Shown piece by piece: positions 187 through 2,862 of a stretch of 64,000 nucleotides of DNA. This DNA comes from an uncultured Mucilaginibacter sp. (GTDB taxonomy: Bacteria > Bacteroidota > Bacteroidia > Sphingobacteriales > Sphingobacteriaceae). Under the pieces are notes generated by a model. It worked only from the letters and a program-made list of their open reading frames with translations, made no database searches and was not told the origin of the DNA. The stretch covers positions 1-64,000 of the forward strand of contig CAIPDP010000073.1 in the NCBI GenBank assembly GCA_903863845.1, given 5' to 3'. Position numbers and translations under genes: made by a program. The first letter of the stretch is position 1. Every line of letters begins with the position of its first letter.

Positions 187-2637
187 CTATTTCGCTCCTA
201 CGTTAATCAAATCAGCAAAAACACCGGCAGCGGTAACTTCTGCACCCGCACCAGGTCCTTTTACAACAAGAGGCCTGTCTTTGTAACGGTCGGTTGTAAA
301 CGAAATTATATTGTCACTACCCGACATGATAAAGAATGGGTGAGTTTCATCGACCATTTGTAAAGTGATGGTTGCTTTACCACCTTCCAGTTTGCCGATA
401 TAACGCAAGGCTTTACCACTGGTTTTAGCCTTATTCTTCAAATCTTCAAAATAGGCATCTTCGGCCTTTAAAGCTGCATAAAAATCTTCAACCGTAGGCG
501 CCTCAATACAGCTTTTTGGTAAAATACTTTCGATATGAACCTCAGCCGCTTCCATCGGATATCCGGCATCACGTGCCAGAATCAGCATTTTGCGCATAAA
601 ATCGGTGCCTTTAAGGTCATCCCGCGGATCTGGTTCGGTATAGCCATTTTCCTGCGCCAGTTTAACAATATCATGGAAACTGGTATCACCTTTAAAATAA
701 TTGAAGATAAAGGAAATAGTTCCGGACAGGATCGCTTCTATCCGCATTACCCGGTCGCCGCTATTCATCAGGTTTTTTAAAGTGCTGATGATTGGCAGGC
801 CCGCACCTACGTTAGTTTCGTAAAAAAAGTCGACACCATGCTGGCGGGCAGTATCGCGGAAGGTTTTATACTGCTTATAATCTGCCGAGTTGCCGATCTT
901 GTTACAGGTAACTATAGATATTGTCGATTTAAATATTTCTTCATAATGCTTTACCGGAACCGGGCTTGCGGTATTGTCGATGAACACACAATTGGGCAGG
1001 TTCATGGCTTTCATTTGATTTACAAAACCCGCCAGGTCGGCCAGGTCGCCATGCTGTTGCAGTTCCTCCTGCCAGTTATCCAGCGAAAAGCCATCGGCAT
1101 TAAATATCATTTTCCGGGTATTGCTGATACCCACTATCTTAACCTGGATGCCATTTTTTTCCTTCAAGTGTTCCTTGTGCTGGTTTAACTGTTTAAACAA
1201 AGTTTTCCCGATGTTTCCGGTACCAAGGCAAAATGCATGGAGGGTTTTATTAAGTTGTACAAAAAATGCATCATGCACTGCATTGAGCGCTTTGGCAAGG
1301 TCGCTTTTAGCGATGATCACCGAAATATTGTATTCTGACGAGCCTTGTGCAATTGCCCTTACATTTACGCCGTTGCGCCCGAGTGCAAAAAATAATTTTC
1401 CGGAAATACCGGGCGTTTCTTTCATATTTTCGCCCACAATAGCCAGTATCGCCAGTTCTTTTTCTGTTTTGGGATGATCGAGTTTGGCAGCCAATAGTTC
1501 CAGTTCAAACTCCTGCTCAATAACCCTTTCGGCCTTTTCAGCATCTGAAGGAGCAACTGCGAAAGTGATGCTGTGCTCTGAGGAAGATTGAGTGATAAGG
1601 ATGATATTGATCTGTTCGCGGGCAAGTAATGAGAACAGACGTCCGCTGAAGCCTGATTTGCCAACCATACCGCTACCTTCAACGTTAATGATGCTGATCT
1701 CGTTAATGGAAGATATGCCTTTGATAGGCTGTGATGAAACCTTGCAATGGTGTTGAATGATAGTACCGGGAAAATCAACATCAAAGGTATTTTTGATCAG
1801 GATCGGTATCTTCTTCAAAAAAGCCGGGATCATTGTTGGCGGATAGATCACCTTGGCTCCAAAATACGAAAGCTCCATTGCTTCGGTATAGGTAAGCTCC
1901 GGCAAAGAAAAAGCTTTCTTAACCATTCGCGGATCGGCGGTCATCATGCCGTTAACGTCGGTCCATATTTGTATTTCAGAAGCATGGAGCGCTGCACCGA
2001 AAATAGCTGCGGTATAATCACTGCCGCCCCGCCCCAGGGTAGTTATCTGGTTTGCATCATTTGAAGCGATGAAACCGGTAACAAATAATATTTTTCCGGG
2101 GTTCTCATTCACAAAAGCCCTGATCAATTGTTCGGTTAATACGGTATTCACTTTGGCATTACCAAATTCGTTATCCGTTTTGATCAGTTCAGAGGCATCA
2201 ACATATTGTGGTTCAGGGAAAGATTCTGCAGCAAGTTTGCTGATGAGCAGGGTTGAACAGCGTTCACCATAACTTAATATTTGGTCGCGGGTCTTTGGCG
2301 TTAGCTCACGGAGGGTTGATACTCCCTGCAACAATTCTTCCAGGTGGTTAAAATTGATCTTCAGCCCCGTAAATGCCGGATTTTGGTGTTGCACATTAAG
2401 CAGGGTCCGCACCATTTCGAAATGGCGGCTCTCCAGTTCTGCCAGCTGTGTGCTAAAATCGCCACCGGATGCTGCACTTTCGGCCATGGCCGACAAAAGG
2501 TTGGTAACACCACTCATCGCCGACAATACCACTACTGGCTTTTCCCCCGCTTCGTATTCTTTCTTAAGTATATCGATCACAGTGCGTATACTTTGGGCTG
2601 AACCGACTGAGGTACCTCCAAATTTTAATATCTTCAT
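187..2637 (-). CDS. thrA: bifunctional aspartokinase/homoserine dehydrogenase
   Basis: MKILKFGGTSVGS aspartokinase start, ACT region, homoserine dehydrogenase C-terminus (GTGNIGKTL, ETNVGAGLPIISTL). The track start at 2664 lies inside the upstream terminator; 2637 is preferred. Confidence 0.96.
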   Translation of the reverse strand: MKILKFGGTSVGSAQSIRTVIDILKKEYEAGEKPVVVLSAMSGVTNLLSAMAESAASGGDFSTQLAELESRHFEMVRTLLNVQHQNPAFTGLKINFNHLEELLQGVSTLRELTPKTRDQILSYGERCSTLLISKLAAESFPEPQYVDASELIKTDNEFGNAKVNTVLTEQLIRAFVNENPGKILFVTGFIASNDANQITTLGRGGSDYTAAIFGAALHASEIQIWTDVNGMMTADPRMVKKAFSLPELTYTEAMELSYFGAKVIYPPTMIPAFLKKIPILIKNTFDVDFPGTIIQHHCKVSSQPIKGISSINEISIINVEGSGMVGKSGFSGRLFSLLAREQINIILITQSSSEHSITFAVAPSDAEKAERVIEQEFELELLAAKLDHPKTEKELAILAIVGENMKETPGISGKLFFALGRNGVNVRAIAQGSSEYNISVIIAKSDLAKALNAVHDAFFVQLNKTLHAFCLGTGNIGKTLFKQLNQHKEHLKEKNGIQVKIVGISNTRKMIFNADGFSLDNWQEELQQHGDLADLAGFVNQMKAMNLPNCVFIDNTASPVPVKHYEEIFKSTISIVTCNKIGNSADYKQYKTFRDTARQHGVDFFYETNVGAGLPIISTLKNLMNSGDRVMRIEAILSGTISFIFNYFKGDTSFHDIVKLAQENGYTEPDPRDDLKGTDFMRKMLILARDAGYPMEAAEVHIESILPKSCIEAPTVEDFYAALKAEDAYFEDLKNKAKTSGKALRYIGKLEGGKATITLQMVDETHPFFIMSGSDNIISFTTDRYKDRPLVVKGPGAGAEVTAAGVFADLINVGAK

Positions 2638-2643
2638 TTTGTT

Positions 2644-2677
2644 AAATAAAAAAGCCTTCCCCAATTCGGAGGAAGGC
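2644..2677 (-). terminator. intrinsic terminator/attenuator between thr leader peptide and thrA
   Basis: Minus strand GCCTTCC-TCCGAATTGG-GGAAGGC followed by TTTTTTATTT, 7 nt upstream of the thrA ATG. Confidence 0.85.
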
Positions 2678-2714
2678 GTTCTGTTGGTTTCTTGCTATAG
2701 TTTACACCAAACGA

Positions 2715-2780
2715 TCATCTTCCTCCGGGTATGTTCCCAGTGGTTGTTGTAGTTGTCGTTATAGTGCTTTTAATGATCAT
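2715..2780 (-). CDS. thrL: thr operon leader peptide MIIKSTITTTTTTTGNIPGGR
   Basis: Minus strand ATG ATC ATT AAA AGC ACT ATA ACG ACA ACT ACA ACA ACC ACT GGG AAC ATA CCC GGA GGA AGA TGA: 8 Thr and 4 Ile codons of 21, followed by a terminator and thrA. Confidence 0.85.
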   Translation of the reverse strand: MIIKSTITTTTTTTGNIPGGR

Positions 2781-2862
2781 GTTTCTGACGGCCGTAAAGT
2801 AAACAGATATTTTTGGAATATGCAAATGGTAATTATTTTTTGTTAGTAGGTCCAAACTTAGC

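Follow-up and report, generated by a model that had tools for sequence, protein, structure and literature searches.

The DNA analyzed here (the window, 64,000 nucleotides in all) lies at a contig end of a 3.98 Mb, Mucilaginibacter-like genome of the Sphingobacteriaceae, to which named species of Mucilaginibacter are closest. On its minus strand the window carries thrA, encoding a fused aspartokinase I/homoserine dehydrogenase I (NF006959, 1038 bits; cutoff 726), with an ATG at 2637 as given in a preliminary description of the sequence. The contig stops at thrA, where the closest relative (L002) continues with thrB (NF002288, 374 bits) and thrC (TIGR00260, 287 bits). A lipoprotein-like ORF of 335 aa (3870–2863) is found upstream on the same strand and ends 82 nt before the start of a short ORF rich in Thr and Ile codons; its transcription could run on into the putative attenuator described below. 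Segments of the intervening RNA are named from 5′ to 3′: A, the first Thr/Ile codons; B, the last sense codons; C, the stretch after the stop; D and E, the two terminator arms. Their pairings are D:E (terminator), B:D (antiterminator), and A:C (protector). The features are as follows, read from the sequence and, where named, from folds.

2823–2826, minus strand: putative promoter −33-like element, TTTG; a TTG-type element is at the same position in many relatives.
2795–2802, minus strand: possible promoter −7-like element, TTACTTTA, differing at two positions from the Bacteroidota consensus TAnnTTTG.
2715–2780, minus strand: leader peptide ORF, MIIKSTITTTTTTTGNIPGGR and stop, kept in frame across an alignment of 77 Mucilaginibacter leaders.
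2751–2767, minus strand: region A (1), first Thr/Ile codons and 5′ arm of the protector, GCACTA-T-AACGACA..., pairing with 2704–2720 in the window fold.
2719–2727, minus strand: region B, 5′ arm of the antiterminator, CGGAGGAAG, within the final sense codons; exact complement of 2675–2667.
2704–2714, minus strand: region C, TCGTTTGGTGT, right after the stop, 3′ arm of the protector (A:C covariation); most of the genus has TCGTATGGTGTAA.
2684–2688, minus strand: ACCAA, tentative inner antiterminator partner of TTGGT (fold of 2728–2645).
2667–2675, minus strand: region D, CTTCCTCCG, antiterminator 3′ arm and terminator 5′ arm (sequence and fold).
2654–2677, minus strand: intrinsic terminator hairpin, GCCTTCCTCCGAATTGGGGAAGGC, 9 bp, 6 of them G-C, −14.4 kcal/mol.
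2648–2653, minus strand: T6 tract of the terminator.
187–2637, minus strand: thrA.

The short ORF contains 8 Thr and 4 Ile codons among its 21, exactly, base for base, as previously described. Such a composition is rare: among 74,956 stop-free stretches in the six frames of the 64-kb window, only seven have at least 9 Thr/Ile in 12 residues, and all seven overlap within the leader ORF. The leader also folds more stably than shuffled sequences (z = −2.94). The genes 3′ of the leader, thrA here, joined by thrB and thrC in L002, make the amino acid that would be sensed. A transcript might start near 2788, the position suggested by the −7-like element, which in relatives reads TTACTTTA, TTACTTTG, or TTAATTTG. 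The predicted promoter elements fit only loosely the consensus TAnnTTTG that is cited for Bacteroidota in PMC9723704.

The leader is not peculiar to this genome. Of 146 sampled thrA genes of the Sphingobacteriaceae, 143 have the full layout upstream: a leader rich in Thr and Ile codons, a strong terminator, and a B complementary to the terminator arm. The sample includes 80 named Mucilaginibacter-type loci and another 60 regions drawn from genera elsewhere in the family; eight other-family sequences (name filter) on an automatic list of 154 were left out of the 146. The predicted attenuator, of the thrL kind already known, is therefore conserved throughout the Sphingobacteriaceae, and the alignment of relatives proposed in the preliminary description bears out its expectation of conserved Thr/Ile runs upstream of thrA.

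At the 80 Mucilaginibacter-type loci, leaders of the form M..NNT(I/T)..TT..TTG...GGR-stop stand before nearly every thrA. Alignment of 77 of these leaders by their 3′-terminal codons shows one Thr codon that is invariably ACC, and the last codons are nearly always GGA GGA AGA or GGA GGA AGG, which indicates that nucleotides are held here and not residues alone. In the leader core, the synonymous fraction of single-base codon differences is 0.70, compared with 0.31 expected, and Thr/Ile exchange, the commonest replacement, accounts for 910 of the 1266 non-synonymous single-base differences. The leader thus evolves as a coding sequence. Synonymous bias together with Thr/Ile swaps is the pattern expected if the codons are read out and both Thr and the product Ile are sensed.

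The intrinsic terminator before thrA, previously placed at 2677–2644, resolves into the hairpin at 2677–2654 and the T6 tract at 2653–2648. The exact 9-nt reverse complementarity noted between CGGAGGAAG (2727–2719) and CTTCCTCCG (2675–2667) is likewise present on the minus strand. When the bases of the ORF were shuffled, pairing to the terminator arm was equally strong in 2 of 5000 cases, and an exact 9-nt complement arose in 6 of 5000. In the general scheme the two segments are GGAGGAAG (B) and CTTCCTCC (D). In genera with a different terminator arm B has changed along with it, for example CGGGGC/GTCCCG, GAGGGAAG/CTTCTCT, and CAGAAAGG/CCTTTCTG. The MAFFT alignment (A1) misregisters B between lineages; hence duplexes were evaluated sequence by sequence with permutation of partners. 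B:D covaries between genera by this measure (−14.76 observed versus −12.50 ± 0.34 with permuted partners, none of 500 as good), the sequences being related and the permutation controls lessening, but not removing, the effect of shared ancestry. The competition between antiterminator and terminator proposed earlier is thus conserved and covaries in relatives. In 127 of 143 family leaders the distance from the last Thr codon to the start of B is 8–15 nt, with a mode of 11–12 nt; in the window it is 11 nt. A spacing of 11–12 nt approximates the downstream footprint of a ribosome, so a ribosome with a Thr codon in its A site would just leave B free. The antiterminator is predicted, from pairing and folding, to be exclusive with the terminator and reachable only when the ribosome stalls early.

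The preliminary description of the mechanism was sound as to the B:D competition but incomplete, since it missed a pairing between 2767–2751 and 2720–2704 (A:C). In the fold of the window, GCACTA-T-AACGA pairs with TCGTT-TGGTGT. Most of the genus has ACACCAT/ATGGTGT at these places, and elsewhere the arms are TTATACCAT/ATGGTATAA, TATTACAACAT/ATGTTGTAATA, or AATTTTTACCA/TGGTGAAAATT. A:C covaries in the other genera (−10.36 versus −8.39 ± 0.35 with permuted partners, 0/200), and over all 68 it exceeds synonymous-codon shuffles (−10.37 versus −9.01 ± 0.17, 0/200). Inside the genus partner permutation was not beaten (45/200) because C hardly varies there. By these comparisons, A:C is the predicted 1:2 protector hairpin. 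The conserved motif after the stop had also been considered as a mini-ORF (ATG GTG TAA) or an RNA polymerase pause site; both were set aside, as the A:C pairing accounts for the motif. Searched for further copies of the motif, the window's own genome gave only the attenuator site and three matches with one mismatch.

In folding, TTGGT (2710–2706, inside region C) can also pair within the antiterminator. This inner stem, UGGU:ACCA, is predicted in most folds. In other genera it did not surpass lineage-permuted partners (244/500), nor did it surpass shuffles in the window (z 0.13), and it is proposed only tentatively.

Taken together, the element is best read, with a probability of roughly 93%, as an attenuator of the E. 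coli thrL type, in which the ribosome would govern transcription of the thr operon. This agrees with the earlier reading of a Thr/Ile-codon attenuator before thrA, whose sequence-based predictions all hold. The 21-codon leader ORF would be transcribed and the outcome settled by competing RNA pairings. With Thr and Ile supplied, the ribosome would reach the stop (2717–2715) and cover B and C; the terminator at 2677–2654 would then form and transcription halt before thrA. If Thr-tRNA (or Ile-tRNA) ran short, the ribosome would stall in the Thr/Ile run, occupying A and leaving B exposed. The exposed B (CGGAGGAAG) could then pair with D (CTTCCTCCG), block the terminator, and allow transcription of thrA. 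With no ribosome on the leader, A:C would pair and the terminator would form, giving basal termination.

The calculated folds follow this scheme in part. The whole window leader, with no ribosome, folds into A:C and the terminator, and the fold from 2704, representing a ribosome at the stop, contains the terminator alone. In the fold from 2728, with the leader exposed, the antiterminator wins (−23.3 versus −21.9 with the terminator forced). The advantage is small, 1.4 kcal/mol, and from 2731 or 2735 the minimum-energy structure is already the terminator. The small gap and the terminator minimum from 2731 suggest that the outcome would rely on the order of helix formation, on timing, and on the exact position of the ribosome. 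Timing of helix formation matters in known attenuators.

Other explanations of the locus were weighed against the attenuator. The hairpin could simply be the terminator of the upstream gene, with the Thr-rich ORF incidental: that gene ends at 2863 on the same strand, no other obvious terminator lies before the leader, and the hairpin sits 16 nt before thrA. A plain terminator, however, needs neither the Thr/Ile ORF, its frame and spacing, nor the B:D and A:C pairings, all of which are kept across the family, and we regard this explanation as highly improbable. Equally little weight is given to a leader that works mainly through translation of thrA or mRNA stability and not through termination of transcription. 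In some other families of Bacteroidota the Thr-rich leader before thrA has no intrinsic terminator, and other outputs may therefore exist in the phylum, but the window has a strong hairpin with a T6 tract, and the antiterminator arm tracks the terminator arm across the family. The presence of a structured leader is all that speaks for a metabolite-binding riboswitch or a T-box in control of thrA. The codons and pairings account for the conservation, and the Rfam scan of the window gave no family at the gathering cutoff, the best match below threshold being Thr_leader itself; control of this kind is scarcely credible.

The resemblance of the leader to enterobacterial ThrL that had been pointed out extends to the whole design of the attenuator. 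E. coli thrL (NC_000913.3, 190–255), like the window ORF (MIIKSTITTTTTTTGNIPGGR), encodes a Thr/Ile-rich leader of 21 aa, and in both a protector pairs back to the Thr codons and is followed by the terminator and a fused thrA. B occupies the same place in E. coli as in the window: the final three sense codons of thrL, GGT GCG GGC, are the complement of the terminator arm GCCCGCACC. The arms themselves differ (GGTGCGGGC/GCCCGCACC in E. coli and CGGAGGAAG/CTTCCTCCG in the window), as do the distance from the last Thr codon to B (6 nt versus 11 nt) and the phylum, and the 3′ arm of the window protector lies mostly past the stop, unlike that of thrL.

Comparison with the Rfam Thr leader family, which had been suggested earlier, gave a mixed answer. 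In a scan against all 4227 Rfam families, RF00506 (Thr_leader) was the best match to the window region, at 25.4 bits. It matches 18 of 20 tested family loci, the best being L187 (49.2 bits, E 8e-7). The whole model aligns in register, positions 1–118 to window 2776–2645 and also to L187 422–545, and its consensus has the layout of the window leader, namely Thr codons, protector arm, and terminator. The gathering score of 55 bits is reached neither by the window nor by any of the 20 tested relatives. The window leader would thus appear to work like thrL, yet it lies outside RF00506 by Rfam's own criterion. Its likeness to the enterobacterial leader could reflect ancestry, transfer together with the fused thrA, or convergence.

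The abstract of a 2004 study by Vitreschak and coworkers reportedly lists candidate attenuators, including cases from Bacteroidetes/Chlorobi. A survey published in 2010 considered leader-peptide attenuation limited to Proteobacteria and Actinobacteria, besides its own case in Firmicutes (PMC2965389). In Bacteroides, small ORFs reminiscent of leader peptides have been noted (PMC7366714). For Flavobacterium psychrophilum, of the same phylum as the present genome, leader-peptide attenuation upstream of amino-acid operons is described in general terms in an article whose main text names neither thrA nor threonine (PMC9723704). The searchable literature yielded no account of a thr attenuator from Bacteroidota. 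The caution about novelty in the preliminary description was justified, given the thrL design and the attenuation upstream of amino-acid operons noted for one flavobacterium (PMC9723704). What is added here is the predicted, conserved thr attenuator of Sphingobacteriaceae with its protector hairpin; the thrL-type design was already known.

The result adds a covariation-supported family of thr attenuators in Bacteroidota, where no scanned sequence reached the cutoff of Rfam Thr_leader, and the Sphingobacteriaceae leaders supply test constructs as well as seed alignments for extending Rfam. An attenuator of this type would imply that transcription and translation are coupled tightly enough for attenuation in Bacteroidota. 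Members of this phylum largely lack Shine-Dalgarno initiation.

Thr leaders are also found elsewhere in the phylum. Leaders with at least 8 Thr/Ile in 12 residues were present in 19 of 64 Bacteroidota thrA upstream regions (a sample that includes five Sphingobacteriaceae), compared with 0.3% of shuffled regions and 0/64 on the opposite strand. In several other families the leader ends in a hairpin that takes in the last codons and carries the stop codon in its loop, as in ACAACCC GTTAA GGGTTGT or ACGATCCGC TAAA GCGGATTGT. Such stop-hairpin leaders, Thr-rich and ahead of thrA, were seen at L158, L161, L164, L168, L170, L172, L174, L177, and other loci. No convincing intrinsic terminator was found 3′ of them. 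A CATAT-type motif usually begins ∼14 nt past the stop, close to the point to which the footprint of a ribosome resting at the stop codon would extend.

A covariance model of the stop hairpin has a single strong site in each of 16 genomes, always upstream of thrA, and three of these genomes had not been used to build the model; its match in the window's own genome is at chance level. No Rfam family covers the element in the loci scanned. Pair counting on the corresponding alignment (A3), in which hairpins of differing length are misregistered, gave no covariation. It is conceivable, at less than even odds, that Bacteroidota have two designs of thrA leader, the thrL type in Sphingobacteriaceae and a terminator-less Thr leader in several other families. 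For the latter, Rho-dependent termination and an effect on translation are guesses. If regulatory, the stop-hairpin design would represent control by a leader peptide that dispenses with an intrinsic terminator, a mechanism absent from Rfam.

Two thr leaders of the terminator type were also noted outside the Sphingobacteriaceae, L123 (family f3; arms CAGAAAGG/CCTTTCTG) and L136 (family f46; arms CTGAAGTT/GACTTCAG). Their arms are unrelated but complementary, which indicates that the thrL-like design is not confined to one family.

Other elements of the window's own genome were noted in passing. No obvious Ile/Val/Leu leader precedes ilvD. A His-rich ORF, MNGYRLHHLHLHHRHQAIR (L247 839–898, contig C15), ends ∼60 nt upstream of hisG and is a candidate his leader; at its stop is ATCGCCACCAGGCGAT, which can form a hairpin, and no clear terminator with a T tract is seen. 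The genome (G000) also carries a palindromic repeat, CCCTCTCCNNNGGAGAGGG, which frequently continues into GCCTCACCCTGC...; it has 14 sites there (reversed control, 0), none of them in the 64-kb window. In several Mucilaginibacter species (L035, L054, L058, L060, and L063) the repeat lies between the attenuator terminator and thrA, and in the present genome it is found just downstream of hisG, for example at L247 1825–1843 and 1904–1922.
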